From a bacterium (lineage in GTDB: Bacteria; JACRDZ01; JAJRWM01): a DNA stretch of 7,434 bases. Where the stretch lies: NCBI GenBank assembly GCA_024276815.1, contig JAJRWM010000099.1:1-7434 (forward strand). Direction: 5' to 3'. This document shows, piece after piece, positions 168-7,434 of this stretch; the first letter of the stretch is position 1; each line of letters opens with the position of its first letter. Under the pieces are notes generated by a model, which was not told the origin of the DNA, did no database searches, and was given only the letters and a program-made list of their open reading frames with translations. Position numbers and translations under genes: made by a program.

Positions 168-935
168 TCAGACTGTCAGCCGGGCGGTTTCCCTGATGAT
201 TTCAACGAAGGAATCAATTTGGAGGCTGGCGCCGCCCACCAGGGCGCCGTCAATATCAGGCTGGCTGAGCAGAGCGGCCGTGTTTTCAGGCTTCACGCTG
301 CCGCCATACTGGATCCTTACCAAGGACGCCGCCTCGGAACCAAATCCCCGGGCGATCAGTTCCCTGATCTGGGTATGGACCTCCTGGGCCTGTTCCGGCG
401 TCGCCGTTTTGCCGGTGCCGATAGCCCAGATGGGTTCATAAGCGATAATCATCTTTGCCACCTCTTCTTTTGACAAATCGGCGAAACAACCGGCGACCTG
501 GTTGGTGATGACTTCCCTGGTCACCCCCCTTTCCCATTCATTTTCCGTTTCGCCAACGCAAACAATGGGAATAATTCCGTGCTTCAGGGCGGAGAAGATT
601 TTTTTGTTTACAGTTTCATTGGTCTCGTTATAGTAGGCGCGTCTTTCGGAATGACCAATTATCACGTAATCGCAACCGATCTCTTCCAGCATGGCGGGAG
701 CGATCTCACCGGTAAAAGCGCCCTTTTCCTCATAATGAATGTTCTGAGCGGCCAGTTTTATGCTGGAGCCTCGGAGTATCTCCTTGATGGAGAGCAAAGC
801 CGTAAAGGGCGGCGCGATAACCTTGTCCACTTCTGAAATATCATCAGCTTGCTCAAGAAGTCCCCGCACTAAATCACGAGCCGCGGCAAGAGCGTTATTC
901 ATTTTCCAGTTACCTGCGATAATTGGTCTGCGCAT
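168..935 (-). CDS. tpiA: Triosephosphate isomerase
   Basis: Cytosolic enzyme that interconverts dihydroxyacetone phosphate and glyceraldehyde-3-phosphate in glycolysis and gluconeogenesis. The 255-residue length is normal for the family. The TIM-barrel landmarks are all present: GNWKMN at 8-13 with the substrate-binding Lys11, IGHSERR at 93-99 with the electrophile His95, AYEPIWAIGTGK at 165-176 with the catalytic base Glu167, and the phosphate-binding YGGSVKPEN (210-218) and GALVGGASL (230-238). The ATG start is supported by AAGGAAGG (948-941) five bases upstream. The gene ends in TGA. It follows pgk by 15 bases and is in the same reading frame as pgk, so only the pgk TAA and a five-codon linker separate the two proteins. 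No damaged catalytic residue or internal stop was seen. Confidence 0.98.
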   Translation of the reverse strand: MRRPIIAGNWKMNNALAAARDLVRGLLEQADDISEVDKVIAPPFTALLSIKEILRGSSIKLAAQNIHYEEKGAFTGEIAPAMLEEIGCDYVIIGHSERRAYYNETNETVNKKIFSALKHGIIPIVCVGETENEWERGVTREVITNQVAGCFADLSKEEVAKMIIAYEPIWAIGTGKTATPEQAQEVHTQIRELIARGFGSEAASLVRIQYGGSVKPENTAALLSQPDIDGALVGGASLQIDSFVEIIRETARLTV

Positions 936-950: not shown

Positions 951-2138
951 TTACTTATCGTTGAGCGCGGCGACGCCGGGAAGCTCCCGGCCTTCCAGGA
1001 ATTCCAGAGACGCTCCGCCGCCGGTTGAAATATGGCTTATTTTGTGGGCGACGCCGGACATGTGGATCGCCGAGGCGGAGTCTCCGCCGCCAATAATGGT
1101 GACCGCCTGGGTGCTGGCCAGGAAGCGGACAATCTCAAACGTGCCTTTACGGTACTCCGGCAGTTCAAAAACGCCCATCGGCCCATTCCACAGGACCAGC
1201 GCGGCTCCTTTAATTGAGCCCTCAAACAGTTTGATCGTTTTGGGACCAACATCCAAACCCTTCCAGCCGTTCGGAATGTCAACGCCCTCGGTAATCCTGG
1301 TTGGCGCCCCTTCTTTCACTTCCTGAGCGATAACATGATCCACCGGCAACAATACCCGAACACCCTGTTTCTCAATTTCCCGCAACAATTCGTTGGCCAG
1401 GTCCAGTTTGTCCTCTTCCACCTTGGAATCGCCAATATCATGCCCGGACGCTTTCAGAAAGGTATAAGCCATCGCGCCGCCCACAATAAAGGTATCCACT
1501 TTATCAATCAAGTGACGGATAACACCGATCTTGTCGCTGACCTTGGCGCCGCCGAGCAGGGTGACAAAGGGATGCTTGGGATGCCTGGTAGCCTGGTTAA
1601 GAAAATTGATCTCTTTTTCCAGCAACAGACCGGCAGCCGCTTTTTCCGTGTATTTGGCGACCGCGCAGGTTGAGGCGTGCGGGCGATGAGCGGTACCGAA
1701 AGCGTCATTGACATAGTAATCAGCGAGCGCCGCCAGTTTTTTGGCGAACTCCTCGTCATTCGCTTCCTCCTCAGGATGGAAGCGGACATTTTCCAGCAAT
1801 AAGACTTCGGCGTTCTGGAGACTATTGACCGCGGCCGTAACTTGCGGTCCGATACAGTCGTCCATTTTTTTAATAGGCATTTTCAGTTTTTTTTCCAGGA
1901 TTTTCTGGATGGGAGTTAAGCGCAAACTCTCAACGACTCGCCCCTTGGGACGTCCCAGGTGAGAGATCAGGATGGTTTTCGCGCCATGGGTGGTAAGGAA
2001 TTTAATGGTCGGCAATGATTCATTAATCCTCAAGCGGTCGGTTACTTCGCCGGCTTCGTTCATGGGAACGTTAAAATCAGCGCGCACCAGAACACGCTTC
2101 CCCCTGACCGATAAATTTAAAACACTGAGTTTATCCAC
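951..2138 (-). CDS. pgk: Phosphoglycerate kinase
   Basis: Cytosolic monomeric kinase that transfers phosphate from 1,3-bisphosphoglycerate to ADP, the first ATP-yielding step of glycolysis. The 395 residues match the usual bacterial length. Visible family motifs are RADFNVPMN (19-27, substrate site), SHLGRPKG (59-66), LLLENVRFHPEEE (113-125), YVNDAFGTAHR (142-152), GGAKVSDKIGV (196-206), GGAMAYTFLKA (220-230), LWNGPMGVFE (316-325) and the nucleotide-binding GGGDSASAI (350-358) with STGGGASLEFLEG (371-383). The start is a GTG preceded by AGGAG (2149-2145) at six bases. It sits 14 bases downstream of the TGA that ends the full-length gap frame and 15 bases upstream of tpiA, so the three genes are almost certainly co-transcribed. 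The gene ends in TAA and has no internal stop. Confidence 0.98.
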   Translation of the reverse strand: MDKLSVLNLSVRGKRVLVRADFNVPMNEAGEVTDRLRINESLPTIKFLTTHGAKTILISHLGRPKGRVVESLRLTPIQKILEKKLKMPIKKMDDCIGPQVTAAVNSLQNAEVLLLENVRFHPEEEANDEEFAKKLAALADYYVNDAFGTAHRPHASTCAVAKYTEKAAAGLLLEKEINFLNQATRHPKHPFVTLLGGAKVSDKIGVIRHLIDKVDTFIVGGAMAYTFLKASGHDIGDSKVEEDKLDLANELLREIEKQGVRVLLPVDHVIAQEVKEGAPTRITEGVDIPNGWKGLDVGPKTIKLFEGSIKGAALVLWNGPMGVFELPEYRKGTFEIVRFLASTQAVTIIGGGDSASAIHMSGVAHKISHISTGGGASLEFLEGRELPGVAALNDK

Positions 2139-2152: not shown

Positions 2153-3151
2153 TCAATTTGTAATGTATTTAACCAGGTCAACAACCCGGCAGGAATAGCC
2201 CCATTAATTATCGTACCAGGCCAGGATTTTAACCAGGCTGCCGCCGTTGACCATGGTGCTCAGTCCGTCAACAATGGAAGAGTTGGGATTGTTGCGGTAG
2301 TCAATAGAGACCAAAGGCTCCTCGTTGTATTGCAGGATGCCGGCCAGTTGCCCTTCAGCCGCTTCTTTCAGGGCCTGGTTGACTTCCCGGGCGGATGTTT
2401 CCTTGTTAACGCTGGCGACAAAATCGACCAGTGAGACATTGGGGGTCGGTATCCTGATCGCCATACCATCAATCTTGCCTTTTAATTCAGGCAGTACGAT
2501 AGTGACGGCCTTGGCGGCCCCGGTTGTCGTCGGGATCATTGACAGAGCGGCGGCCCGGGCCCTTCTCAAATCGCTGTGAGGCAGGTCCAGTATCCGCTGA
2601 TCGTTGGTATATGAATGGATAGTCGTCATGAGACTTTTTTCGATGCCAAATTTATCCTGGATAACCCTGACCACCGGCGCCAGGCAGTTCGTCGTACAGG
2701 AAGCGTTGCTGATGATATGGTGGTTTTCCGGTTGATAGGATTTTTCGTTAACGCCTAAGACGATGGTGATATCAGGTTCGGTGGCCGGCGCTGAAATAAT
2801 CACTTTTTTCGCGCCAGCTTCCAGGTGTAAGGCGGCTTGCGCCCGTTTGCGGAAAAGGCCGGTCGCTTCGATGACCACGTCAACCCCCAGTTCTTTCCAG
2901 GGCAGATCCGCCGGGCTCCTTTCCGCCAGCACCTGTACCTTTTTCCCGTCAACAATCAGACTGTTCTCGTCCGAACTGACATCAGCCGGCCAGGTTCCCT
3001 GGATGGAGTCGTACTTTAAAAGATGAGCCAGGGTTTTCGCGCTGGTCAGATCGTTGACCGCGACTATTTCAAAAGCCTGCTTTTCGTGATTGGCTTTCAT
3101 GATGTTGCGGCCAATACGGCCAAAACCGTTAATCGCTACTTTTGGAGCCAT
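2153..3151 (-). CDS. gap: Glyceraldehyde-3-phosphate dehydrogenase, with an in-frame TAA at codon 316
   Basis: Phosphorylating dehydrogenase that makes 1,3-bisphosphoglycerate from glyceraldehyde-3-phosphate, Pi and NAD(P)+; cytosolic tetramer in the family. It has the Rossmann motif INGFGRIGR (7-15), Asn33-Asp34 typical of NAD-preferring enzymes, the active site [12 protein letters not shown] (148-159) with catalytic Cys152, His179 in [11 protein letters not shown], the DLRRARAAA loop (194-202) and [10 protein letters not shown] (291-300). AGGAGG lies six bases before the ATG. The frame hits TAA at 2206-2204 directly after AWYDN (residue 315), then continues [16 protein letters not shown] to a TGA at 2155-2153. 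Families read N-E-W-G-Y here, so the TAA replaces a near-invariant Glu. With Glu restored the protein is 332 residues, the normal length. Without readthrough it loses its last 17 residues, including the C-terminal helix. If only the first stop is used, the gene spans 2204-3151. Confidence 0.96.
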
Positions 3152-3157
3152 GGTTTT

Positions 3158-3163
3158 CCTCCT
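3158..3163 (-). promoter_or_regulatory. Ribosome binding site of gap
   Basis: The minus strand reads a perfect AGGAGG, six bases before the gap ATG and within the 27-base gap after the prenyltransferase stop. It is among the strongest initiation sites in the window, as expected for an abundant glycolytic enzyme. Confidence 0.85.
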
Positions 3164-3178
3164 GAAATGATTGATAAA

Positions 3179-4111
3179 CTAACCAAAATATATTTTCGAA
3201 ACAGTAGCGGCGAGATAACCGCCGGCAAGCAACAGGCCGGTTATCAAATGAACTCCAACAGTGGAAGCGGAGACCGGTAAAAGCGCCGCCGGATTGTTGA
3301 AATTACCTTTGGCCGCCTGGACAGCTTTAAAAGATAAAGGGATAGTCGCCAAGGCGGCGAGAACAAAATAAGGAGCCGCGGTAAACAACGCCAAAATGAT
3401 TACCGATAAATATGTGAGAACCATCAAAACATAATATAACATAATCGCTTTCTCACGTCCCAGCAAGACAACGACAGTTACCTTGTCAACCTGTTTATCA
3501 GCCTCATAATCAGGAAATTCGTTGATATAAAGGATAGCCGTTATCAATAACGCAACCGGCAAACTGGCGGCCAGGACCTCGCCCAGGTGAACCAAGGAGC
3601 CGCCCTGGACATAATAGGCTCCCAAAACCACTAGAGGGCCGAAGTTAAGCCCGACAATCAGTTATCCCCAGCCCCGATATCCGACCTGGAACGGCTTGGC
3701 CGTATAAAACACCCCGGATAGCAAGCCGAACAAACCCAGATATAATATAACATTCCCGGGTACTTTACCATTAAGATAAATACCGCAAATACTGCCCAGG
3801 ATAAAAAAAGCGCAGGCTCCCCAGAAAACTTCTTCCGGCTTAAGCAGTTTTTCCTGGATCACCCGGCTGCCGCCGCTGAAAGGATTAAAATGCTCGTTAA
3901 CCTCGTCATTGGCTGAAAGATGGTCATAGTAATCATTCATCATGTTGGTGCCGGCGTGGAGAAAAACAACCCCCGCCAGGGTCCAGAGAAACAAGGAAAC
4001 AGAAAAGTTACCGTAGCGTCCGGCGATAGCGGCACCCAGGCAAACCGGCACGATGGTCGCGGTGAAAAAAGGCGCTCTGACTGCTTTAAGCCATCTTCGG
4101 AGAAGTGTCAT
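3179..4111 (-). CDS. menA: UbiA-family prenyltransferase, probably MenA, with an in-frame TAA at codon 150
   Basis: Integral membrane enzyme that attaches a polyprenyl chain to a ring acceptor. Best match is 1,4-dihydroxy-2-naphthoate polyprenyltransferase of menaquinone synthesis. The first Asp-rich motif is NDYYD (59-63), followed by FNPFSGGSRVIQ (75-86), then YTAKPFQVGYRGWG (136-149). A TAA at 3664-3662 comes next, and the same frame resumes LIVGLNFGPLVVLGAYYVQ (151-169) and reaches the second motif NEFPDYEAD (197-205). With one residue at the TAA the protein is 310 residues with many hydrophobic segments, normal for the family. Relatives carry an acidic residue after the Gly; GAA-to-TAA is one change. 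The two halves each hold one Asp-rich motif, so neither half should work alone. Start chosen as ATG 4111, with GGAG (4121-4118) six bases upstream; a TTG at 4177 lies inside the promoter. Other UbiA acceptors cannot be excluded. Confidence 0.88.
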
Positions 4112-4117
4112 ATGAAT

Positions 4118-4121
4118 CTCC
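4118..4121 (-). promoter_or_regulatory. Ribosome binding site fixing the prenyltransferase start
   Basis: The minus strand reads GGAG, six bases before the ATG at 4111. It supports the start MTLLRRWLKAVRAPFF, which matches the normal family N-terminus, over a TTG 66 bases upstream. Confidence 0.7.
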
Positions 4122-4147
4122 AAAAGCTCCAACACTGTGATGAAATC

Positions 4148-4177
4148 ATAATAAGCAATATCCCTTCTCTTTGTCAA
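4148..4177 (-). promoter_or_regulatory. Sigma70-type promoter for menA-gap-pgk-tpiA
   Basis: On the minus strand a perfect -35 TTGACA (4177-4172) is followed after 18 bases by TATTAT (4153-4148), five of six matches to the -10 consensus. The predicted start near 4141 gives a leader of about 30 bases before the ATG at 4111. The downstream gaps (27, 14 and 15 bases) suggest that this promoter drives the whole four-gene cluster. Confidence 0.65.
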
Positions 4178-4195
4178 TGATTATTTATTTGACAA
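4171..4195. repeat. 7-bp inverted repeat over the -35 box, possible operator
   Basis: TTGTCAA (4171-4177) and TTGACAA (4189-4195) form a perfect 7-bp inverted repeat with an 11-base A/T-rich spacer. The left arm coincides with the -35 hexamer of the menA promoter, so a protein bound here would block the promoter. Being short and A/T-rich, it could also be chance. Confidence 0.35.
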
Positions 4196-4215
4196 TTAGT
4201 TATAGAAGTTCACCT

Positions 4216-4968
4216 TTAATACAGCGCGCTGACGGCAACAACGAAAGCGTCCACTTCCTTCGCGCCGGCCCGCATCAGGGTGGTCGCGCACTCGTTGACG
4301 GTAAAACGGGTGGTGGCGATATCGTCAAACACTAACACCCGCTTATTCTTTATGAGCGCTGGGTCGGGGACCGAAAAGCAACCCTTGATAAGTTTTTGCC
4401 GGGCCTGATAGGTGACAGCGCCGCTCATAGGAGCGGTTGATTTTTTCCTTTTCAGAGCGTTGGTATTCATAGGTATGTTCCATTCTCCCGCCAGGCAGCC
4501 GGCGATTTCCTCCGCCTGGTTAAAGCCCCGGTTTAGCCGGCGAAGCCCGGGCAGCGGTACCGGGAGCAAAAGATCATATATCTCCGGGTTGAAATCGCCG
4601 GGCAAGTTCTTAAGAACAGCCTGGCTTAAAAAGCGAGCCAGCGGCCGAACGCCTTTAAACTTCAGGGCATTGAGCGCTAACCTGGTAACCCCGTAAAATT
4701 CAAAACAAGCGAACAACTGTTCAAAAACAAAACGCCTGTTTTGGCAGATTGAGCAAAAGCTTGTCAGTTCAGGATCCACCCGGGAGAGACACCGGGGACA
4801 GCGGGGATAGCTTAAGAGCGGCAGGTTTTCCCGGCACGCTTTACAAAAATGCAAATTATCATAGTTGTCATCAAACAGTTACCCGCAATTCAAACAGACC
4901 GGCGGATAGAGAAAATAGAGAAGGTTGTCAGCCAGGTTTTTGATCCTTTTCAGCGTTTTCCCCCGCAA
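4216..4968 (-). CDS. comF: ComF-family phosphoribosyltransferase-like protein, with an in-frame TAA near the N-terminus
   Basis: ComF/GntX family protein, linked in other bacteria to DNA uptake; the biochemical role is uncertain. It is built from N-terminal cysteine knuckles and a type I phosphoribosyltransferase fold. Numbering from a TTG at 4968, the cysteine pairs are C25/C28, C42/C45, C57/C60 and C72/C75. They are followed by LLLPVPLPGLRRLNRGFNQAEEIA (the classic RGFNQA motif) and the PRPP loop VLVFDDIATTRFTVNEC, with Asp215-Asp216. A TAA at 4881-4879 falls between the first two cysteine pairs, directly after CLNCG. The frame is open on both sides, so either the TAA is an error, mutation or recoded site, or translation restarts at a later TTG (4854). 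Three positions look unusual: Arg221 replaces the usual Gly of the PRPP loop, Met replaces the usual Gln after KSTAP, and Leu replaces the usual Asn in RQKLIKG. The exact start is unsure; no in-frame ATG exists. Confidence 0.85.
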
Positions 4969-5014
4969 ACATCTTACCCCGCTTAACTTAATATATACTT
5001 AAAGCCGATGACTT

Positions 5015-5020
5015 ATTATA
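5015..5020 (-). promoter_or_regulatory. Candidate -10 box for comF
   Basis: The minus strand reads TATAAT (5020-5015), preceded by TTATTG. It would start transcription about 40 bases before the TTG start of comF. No recognisable -35 hexamer lies at 17-18 bases, so the call is weak. Confidence 0.35.
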
Positions 5021-5073
5021 CAATAATGATGTCGGTCGTTTTGTTTTTAGTGAAAAACGGGTGGTGTTACTGG

Positions 5074-5102
5074 TTGACAAAATTTCCTTTTTGCCATAAA
5101 AA
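5074..5102 (+). promoter_or_regulatory. Candidate promoter for the HAMP-cytochrome gene pair
   Basis: A perfect TTGACA (5074-5079) is followed after 17 bases by TAAAAA (5097-5102), four of six matches to the -10 consensus. The leader would be about 95 bases. A second option is the downstream TATAAT boxes at 5131-5136 and 5138-5143, which match the -10 perfectly but have no good -35. Confidence 0.4.
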
Positions 5103-5191
5103 TAAATGAAACTATGCAGAATTGTTATTGTATAATTTATAATGAATTATGTATGTCTTTCGCGCGCTGGTCAGTTAAAGCAGGCATACGC

Positions 5192-5197
5192 AGGAGG
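5192..5197 (+). promoter_or_regulatory. Ribosome binding site deciding the ATG start of the HAMP gene
   Basis: A perfect AGGAGG lies eight bases before ATG 5206 and only five bases before the adjacent TTG at 5203. The spacing favours the ATG. Confidence 0.8.
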
Positions 5198-5205
5198 TTA
5201 TCTTG

Positions 5206-5805
5206 ATGGAAAAGAATTCCGAGCGTCGGGGCAATTATTTTATCAATAAATCTTTCCAGACAAAATTTGTCCTCAGATTTGTCATTTTATTAACCGTCGG
5301 CCTGATTATTTCCGCCGGCCTGTTGTACCTCTTATCGAACAAAAGCATTTCCGCCAACATGGCCTACGGCCATTACCGGGCCCAGATGCGTAATACGTTC
5401 GAGATGTTGCTGCCCAACGTTATCATTACGACTGTGGCGGCGGTTTTCATCGTCAGCGTACTGGGTATTGTCTTGTTCATTCGCTACAGTCATCGGCTCG
5501 CCGGCCCGTTATACCGTTTTGAAAAAACGGCTCAGCGAATCAGCCAGGGCGACCTGACGGATGAAATAAAGCTCCGCAACAAAGACGAGATGGTCGAACT
5601 GGGGAACTCCCTGACTTAGATGACCAGGAAGCTGAACCAAAAGATTGTTGACATCAAGCGGGAAACAGCGGCTATCTCCGCGGTCGCCGAGAAACTGGAT
5701 AACAGCCTGAACAATTCCGATTCCAAATAATCTAAAGAGTTAACAGAGAAACTTAATAAACTGGTCAAAGAGATGAAGGATTCAGTTGATTTTTTCAAGG
5801 TCTAA
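5206..5805 (+). CDS. Small two-pass membrane protein with HAMP domain, with in-frame TAG and TAA
   Basis: Inner-membrane protein of about 199 residues with no recognised output domain; the role is unknown but probably signal relay or a scaffold. Layout: short cytoplasmic N-terminus, TM1 about 22-43, a short loop rich in charged and polar residues (45-68), TM2 about 71-92, then HAMP about 93-145. The HAMP begins RYSHRLAGPLYRFEKT (93-108), with the family's conserved Gly-Pro-Leu and the DEMVELGNSL segment at its second helix. A TAG at 5617-5619 (codon 138) interrupts the second HAMP helix. The frame continues MTRKLNQKIVDIKRE and a coiled-coil-like tail, meets a TAA at 5728-5730 (codon 175), resumes SKELTEKLNKLVKEM and ends at TAA 5803-5805. 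Continued heptad-like, Lys/Glu-rich sequence on both sides argues that the tail is genuine coding. Glu, Gln or Lys would fit either stop position. It lies three bases upstream of the propeller/cytochrome gene, in the same frame. Confidence 0.85.
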
Positions 5806-5808
5806 GCC

Positions 5809-7434
5809 ATGCCGAAAATAAAGCGGATTTTTACCGGGATTCTTGGGGGAATTTTCATTTTAGGCGCGGTTCAGCTCCGGGCGGTCAACCACCCGGGGAG
5901 AAACAACCACGCTAATACCGGGACTTTTTTCCAGGAGGAGCGGGACGTCATTAACCAGCTATACTACCTGGAGATGTCCGACCCGCCCCGGATCAAACAC
6001 GTCGTCTTCGCCGGCGGCAATAAACCGGATACCATCGTCGCCAAAGGCGGTTCTTTCGATATCTCGCCCCGGGGTCGGACCATTGTTTACAGTTATAATA
6101 ACCGTTTGCGGCTGACGAAGTTGGCTGGCAGGGGTAAAACCATCCTGACCAGGGGAGAAGGCGACCGTCCCAAATGGTCGCCCAACGGCGAGTTGATAGC
6201 CTATATTGATAAACTTGAATCCGGCAAAGAAGCAATCTCTGTTATGGATAAACTGGGAGAAGAAACTGAGACCCTGCTGATTATTGACCGGGTAACAGAC
6301 TTTTTTTGGGCAAACAACAGCGATAATATTCTCCTGGTGGCCAAAAGGAACGAGTTCTATTATCTTATCAAGGTTTCGCTGGACGCTTACAAGGATACCC
6401 TCTACCAATTCCCCCAACATATTGAAATCAGGCAAGCCGCCTTTACCCCGTTTGCCAAAAAGCTGGCCTATGTTTCCAGGAACAAGGCCGGAGAAGAAAC
6501 GGTTTTTCTGGTTGATCTGAATATTTACCGGTTATTCCGGCTCACCAGGCCATACCAGAAGTGTTTCGGGTTAAGCTGGTCTCCCGACGGAAAAAGCCTG
6601 GTGTTCAGCGGGGACAATAATTTATATACCGTCAAGGACATCAAGGGCAATGTCTACAAGCTGCAGGAAGGCGTCGACCGGCCGGTCTGGTCCAGAAACA
6701 GCGATAAAATTGTTTTCACAAAAATTGGCGACGACACCAAGATGGCTCTGTACAATATCCGCAATGATTATATCCAGGACCTGGATATCGGCTCAAATCC
6801 GAAGCGGAATATGATCCTGCTTGAGAAACGGAAATCACTGGCCGATGTGCAGGTAGTTAAAGTAAATGGTGACATAACCTATTCCGGCCCCAATAAAAGA
6901 CGGCAAAAGCTACGCGACGGGATGCTGATTCCCATTAATTCTTCTGTTCAGACCGACGCCTACAGCACCGCGGATTTTTTGCTGGGGCAGGATATCGACC
7001 TGACAGTCTCCCCTCACACGGAAGTTAAAATTGATTACGACGAGGTAGCGGGTTATTTCGAGGAAGTCGCCAAGAAGCGAGAGCTGAAAATGAAAGTTTT
7101 GACCGGGCAGGTTAAGATAAAAGACCGGGGCAAGACCTTGACGGTTAGCGCCGGCGAGGAATACGTGGTTCCCCTGGCGAAAGCCTCGGCCGCCGCGGAA
7201 GAGAATCCCCGGGGGGGATTAACCGCTTCCTTACTGTTTGGCCGGACCGAAAAAATCCGGCGAAAATCCGCCCGCAACAGTGCGGGAAAGAGTTCCGGCA
7301 AGGCGCAAAAGGTCCAACTTGAGGTAAACCATCCTCATGGTGCCGAGGCCGGGAACAGCGACTGTTTGAAATGTCATCCCGACCGGCCGGACTGGAGCCT
7401 GGTGGATTATAAAACAGTTGAGTTCACCCCGGAA
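5809..7434 (+). CDS. TolB-like propeller / FecR-like / c-type heme fusion protein (3' end outside window)
   Basis: An open frame of 542 codons with no internal stop runs off the window; I do not recognise a named gene. The N-terminus MPKIKR plus a hydrophobic stretch (7-22) is a signal peptide or membrane anchor, so the rest should be exported. Residues about 60-335 contain TolB/WD40-like blades with repeated motifs: ISPRGRTIVY (85-94), RPKWSPNGELIAY (120-132), AAFTPFAKKLAYV (210-222), LSWSPDGKSLVF (255-266) and RPVWSRNSDKIVF (291-303). Residues about 345-455 look like a FecR domain (DGMLIPINSSVQTDA, then LTVSPHTEVKI and SAGEEYVV). A basic, Ser/Lys/Arg-rich linker (about 477-503) leads to NHPHG and the heme c site CLKCH (Cys519, Cys522, His523), with His508 or His510 as possible second ligand. 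More hemes may follow. A weak AAGG precedes the ATG by eight bases; translation is probably coupled to the HAMP gene, whose TAA ends three bases upstream. Confidence 0.88.
   Translation, partial: MPKIKRIFTGILGGIFILGAVQLRAVNHPGRNNHANTGTFFQEERDVINQLYYLEMSDPPRIKHVVFAGGNKPDTIVAKGGSFDISPRGRTIVYSYNNRLRLTKLAGRGKTILTRGEGDRPKWSPNGELIAYIDKLESGKEAISVMDKLGEETETLLIIDRVTDFFWANNSDNILLVAKRNEFYYLIKVSLDAYKDTLYQFPQHIEIRQAAFTPFAKKLAYVSRNKAGEETVFLVDLNIYRLFRLTRPYQKCFGLSWSPDGKSLVFSGDNNLYTVKDIKGNVYKLQEGVDRPVWSRNSDKIVFTKIGDDTKMALYNIRNDYIQDLDIGSNPKRNMILLEKRKSLADVQVVKVNGDITYSGPNKRRQKLRDGMLIPINSSVQTDAYSTADFLLGQDIDLTVSPHTEVKIDYDEVAGYFEEVAKKRELKMKVLTGQVKIKDRGKTLTVSAGEEYVVPLAKASAAAEENPRGGLTASLLFGRTEKIRRKSARNSAGKSSGKAQKVQLEVNHPHGAEAGNSDCLKCHPDRPDWSLVDYKTVEFTPE
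7363..7377 (+). other. c-type heme attachment motif CLKCH
   Basis: Codons 519-523 of the propeller/FecR protein encode Cys-Leu-Lys-Cys-His, the CxxCH signature for covalent heme c binding after export. The preceding N-H-P-H-G and the spacing resemble small multiheme (c3/c7-like) cytochromes. One heme site is visible before the window ends. Confidence 0.8.

Follow-up and report, generated by a model that had tools for sequence, protein, structure and literature searches.

In-frame UAA and UAG codons in a draft bacterial genome: probable G:C-to-T:A errors imitating a glutamate code

In Blastocrithidia, UAR codons mean glutamate and UAA also serves as a stop (PMC12153298). The new bacterial codes reported from the Codetta screen all concerned arginine codons, and the same screen produced false stop reassignments, which came from in-frame stops that no suppressor tRNA accompanied (PMC8629427). 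When coverage and read quality are poor, bacterial assemblies are known to acquire internal stops (PMC11017572), and oxidised guanine has been described as a source of G>T artefacts in libraries (Costello et al. 2013, as cited in PMC12390751).

The window analysed here, 7,434 nucleotides long, is the whole of one contig (C20) of a 2.39-Mb draft genome that consists of 246 contigs and is 91% complete; the three relatives from its phylum that were available all belong to other families. It resembles Blastocrithidia in that UAA and UAG stand at Glu positions while still terminating genes and differs from it in that no cognate tRNA was found, the release factors are canonical, GAA and TAA occur as alleles of one codon within one assembly, and non-Glu sites and TGA are affected as well. 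With the false calls of the Codetta screen it shares stops that lie opposite residues whose codons a single substitution would turn into a stop, in the company of no suppressor tRNA, but those were pseudogene transitions that made UGA or UAG seem to be Trp, whereas here transversions make UAA and UAG seem to be Glu. As in the spurious stops of low-coverage assemblies, intact genes seem interrupted through errors entering the consensus; the difference is that one transversion class dominates here and mimics a Glu reassignment. The 8-oxoguanine artefact is similar in its near-exclusive G>T/C>A changes at scattered sites unrelated to gene function, though it is known mainly from read-level variant calls and here the changes stand in assembled contigs. 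We propose that the five in-frame stops of the window are very probably erroneous bases that arose by G:C>T:A substitution in a fragmented and incomplete draft assembly.

Interrupted genes of the window

The genes and the stops within them are arranged as follows.

168..935, minus strand: tpiA, without interruption, TGA end
951..2138, minus strand: pgk, without interruption, TAA end directly before the tpiA ribosome-binding site
2153..3151, minus strand: gap (GAPDH), true end TGA at 2153-2155
2204..2206, minus strand: TAA in gap, at the invariant Glu of WYDNEWGY
3179..4111, minus strand: menA (UbiA family), true end TAG, then AGGAGG and gap
3662..3664, minus strand: TAA in menA, at a Glu-preferring position, spanned by the Pfam UbiA domain
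4216..4977, minus strand: comF, ending in TAA; the 5' limit of these coordinates is not a defined start
4879..4881, minus strand: TAA within the double zinc ribbon encoded by comF, spanned by Pfam DZR_2
5206..5805, plus strand: short membrane HAMP-domain gene, true end TAA adjoining the ATG of the next gene
5617..5619, plus strand: TAG in the HAMP-domain gene, at the end of the HAMP domain, spanned by the Pfam domain
5728..5730, plus strand: TAA in the HAMP-domain gene, in the coiled C-terminal part outside any domain, where one weak alignment gives Gln

The five internal stops, four TAA and one TAG, lie exactly where the original prediction had placed them, and its statement that no frameshift accompanies any of them holds too, each frame being open on both sides of its stop; frameshifts were rejected as the cause. 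A contaminating contig from a recoded ciliate was rejected on account of the ordinary bacterial gap-pgk-tpiA cluster and its neighbours, and pyrrolysine because it would concern UAG only. As had been noted, pgk, tpiA and a 542-codon ORF contain no internal stop at all. At 5809-7434 on the plus strand, an open ORF with a beta-propeller-like part runs off the contig; close to the contig end it carries a haem-binding-type CLKCH motif.

The site in gap, which is present in one copy only in the genome, was called a Glu position, and Glu indeed occupies it in 90 of 90 reference alignments. The menA site, said to be acidic, prefers Glu in Pfam rescoring with substituted residues (E 120.2, S 118.6, Y 116.2 bits). 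The remaining three sites were thought to tolerate Glu, which is true of the comF site (E 35.0, S 34.6 bits) and of the first HAMP site at 5617 (Q 35.1, E 34.0, S 33.6 bits), though neither of them separates Glu from Ser or Gln, and at 5728 the residue is not determinable. Judged by alignments and domain profiles, a clear preference for Glu is present at the gap and menA sites only. The same codons terminate genes within the window, as the TAA of pgk is followed by the ribosome-binding site and tpiA, and the TAG of menA by AGGAGG and gap.

Stop codons and decoding across the genome

Of the 2.39 Mb of the draft genome 1.28 Mb were read, and homology was scored against 2.8 Mb of reference DNA drawn from the surroundings of 80 gap genes of other genomes and from portions of an Acetoanaerobium replicon, with the scans filtered against antisense shadow frames. 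The PLSDB entry NZ_CP154629.1 (L263 and others), the 2.63-Mb "plasmid" pTPELB2 of Acetoanaerobium noterae, bears many housekeeping genes and looks chromosome-like. In gap of one genome of the same phylum (L092 of G002) a single in-frame TGA occurs, not far from the N-terminus and at a position that is variable.

In 102,008 aligned codons of the genome under study about 27 in-frame stops appeared, on our own reading, to be genuine interruptions. The original prediction had spoken of clustered base-call error; the events are, however, not confined to the window, and similar stops are spread over the whole draft genome, many of them at conserved Glu. Examples of the latter are DAHP synthase (LC*RGIRTFE), PtsI (LPGE*EQF), an ABC ATPase (KG*F) and FabH (TSD*WI), and further ones occur in UvrB, GlmU, an HD-GYP protein and a FabK-like protein. 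The window is nevertheless dense in them: its roughly 2,290 codons hold five, where the genome-wide rate leads one to expect about 0.6 (P about 4e-4), a value to be read knowing that the window was chosen for its stops.

This genome-wide distribution, with many conserved Glu positions, makes recoding a hypothesis worth a serious test. A code of dual meaning, in which UAA and UAG are Glu inside genes and still act as terminators, as in peritrich ciliates and Blastocrithidia, would account for the many interrupted genes and for the few or no TGA codons in the homology-supported set. It is nonetheless very improbable in our view, because residues other than Glu are affected and TGA is found within domains. 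In Pfam rescoring Glu falls 4.9 bits behind Ser at a TAA site in CvpA, 4.8 bits behind Tyr at a TAA site in a TPR protein, and also behind Ser at a TAG site in a PMT protein; internal TGAs lie within Na/H exchanger, GAF and TPR domains, where the rescoring could not name the lost residue.

The decoding machinery argues in the same direction. Altered RF1 had been proposed as a sign of recoding, and both RF1 (PVT, GGQ) and RF2 (SPF, GGQ) turned out to be intact, with canonical motifs. TAA and TAG terminate 468 of 720 long ORFs, and TGA ends long ORFs too. No tRNA with a UUA or CUA anticodon was present among the tRNAs recovered, which is a weak point if taken alone, as the set from this 91% complete assembly is also without Trp, Tyr and Asn tRNAs; the sole tRNA-Glu recovered has a UUC anticodon and a normal five-pair anticodon stem.

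Another reading is that the nonsense mutations are true and recent, or that the genes are pseudogenes of a decaying genome; very young pseudogenes do show in-frame stops and no frameshift. We hold this reading for scarcely credible, as the affected set includes, besides the single-copy gap, also serS, fabH, plsX, ptsI and ribosomal protein L1, and as one transversion class fits the changes, whereas natural divergence in this genome is rich in transitions.

Among stop candidates found by coding potential, which still include true gene ends, TAA, TAG and TGA stand at 78:46:19, and codon usage predicts 55, 31 and 14% for these stops if they are made by G>T/C>A changes. The homology-supported set contains no TGA and an excess of Glu, a stronger bias towards Glu than would follow from symmetric errors. 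This may reflect partly our own classification and sparse references and partly a context dependence of the damage. Owing to the apparent Glu excess it also stays conceivable that decoding is leaky, with UAA and UAG occasionally tolerated as Glu and an independent background of G>T errors added to this, for which we see very little probability. If this were true, GAR-to-TAR changes would be nearly synonymous and would accumulate in this bacterium, whose phylum has been sampled only sparsely.

Disagreeing contig overlaps

Many contig ends of the bin (for example L003/L007, L006/L104 and L041/L107) have an identical overlap of exactly 141 bases, as a k-mer assembler would leave it. In five cases the end overlap is longer and the two contigs disagree, with 15 single-base differences in all, and 14 of these 15 are G/T or C/A. 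One codon of FabH is GAA on C18 (L019) and TAA on C24 (L024), and the stop codon is not a stable genomic allele there. The SSGGG motif of AroK has GGA against GTA between overlapping contigs, and the other codon pairs include GTT/TTT (twice), CAC/CCC, TGG/TGT at a PAS-type Trp and TGC/GGC. The resulting residue pairs (V/F, P/H, G/V, W/C, G/C, L/M and E/stop) indicate that codons are affected regardless of function, and about two of the 15 differences are silent. From codon usage 7.5% of G>T/C>A changes are expected to create a stop, and 1 of 14 in the overlaps does so.

Both alleles of these loci were assembled and most pairs are missense, and the FabH stop thereby belongs to a wider class of G>T/C>A changes. 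Both this GAA/TAA pair and the origin of missense changes from the same substitution class stand against a dual-meaning code. Together with the non-Glu sites and the canonical release factors and termination by all three stops, the FabH pair leaves readthrough or UAA/UAG as Glu, which had been mentioned as a novel possibility, unsupported. The assembly was searched for another copy of the window that would allow the alleles to be compared directly, and none was found; it counts against the error reading that paired alleles are seen elsewhere in the assembly and not at the five sites themselves.

The assembly of both alleles in five overlaps could also be expected if the T alleles were real, that is, if the population carried many segregating G:C>T:A mutations, as a lineage without MutY might, and the contigs displayed some of the mutant alleles. 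In agreement with this, no mutY was found above the curated cut-off in the 91% complete genome (G000), where only a weaker endonuclease-III-like match appeared. We consider such polymorphism unlikely, however, because mutM is present and intact in the same genome (mutM/endonuclease-III-like loci at C36:4861-5376 and C60:17976-18323), and because invariant residues of presumably essential genes are changed while only about two of 15 differences are silent, which gives no sign of selection. The long-term spectrum is also different from that of a G:C>T:A mutator, as repeat copies diverge mainly by transitions: in four families with copies in the same genome, 36 of 59 singletons are transitions and 15 of 59 are of G/T+C/A type, while in the overlaps this type makes up 14 of 15 differences (P about 2e-6). 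Whether error or polymorphism, the event is one in the letters of DNA and not in decoding.

Probable source of the changes and other sequence features

Missense changes of the G>T class are found at invariant residues elsewhere, such as Walker A G to V and AroE GDN to GYN, and an HD-GYP change of FDP to FYP lies on a contig that also bears a Glu-to-stop change. A 12-type substitution spectrum at conserved residues, genome-wide against a control genome, was swamped by natural divergence, and at the conserved sites of gap, pgk and tpiA there is almost no G>T/C>A missense. This scarcity, the Glu bias of the homology-supported set and the high density of stops in the window all speak against error. 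Even so, the preference of the original prediction for base-call error or recent mutation by a G-to-T change is supported by the overlaps, the non-Glu sites and the canonical termination.

From this we infer a technical cause of the 8-oxoguanine type, rather than real polymorphism, which the sites of the window would share with the rest of the genome. The likeliest source would be oxidation of guanine while the sample or the library was handled, combined with low local coverage; it may have replaced G by T, or C by A, at scattered sites, and the assembler would then have kept these bases. A minority of such changes would make stops and most would be missense. The true codons of the organism would most probably be GAA or GAG, with Ser codons possible at the comF and HAMP sites.

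Under G>T/C>A errors the change of GAA or GAG to TAA or TAG is the commonest route to a stop, and 57% of error-made stops here would be former Glu codons. With Glu codons dominating in this way, a damaged draft genome can mimic a code in which UAA and UAG are Glu. The stops are important as a caution and not as biology, being very probably no real feature of the organism, and G/T pairs in disagreeing contig overlaps serve as a quick test that needs no reads.

Some repeated sequences were also observed in this material. An interspersed, REP-like repeat of about 122 bases, with the inverted-repeat core ATTCCCGTGCCAACGGGAAT, occurs at L015:6941-7062 and in about 19 more copies, about 95% identical to each other, among them those on L004, L025, L040, L055, L060, L072, L099, L111, L143, L151 and others. 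Tandem arrays of diverged long units are present at L015:8610-9639 (units of about 145 bases) and L101:15016-15874 (about 159 bases).
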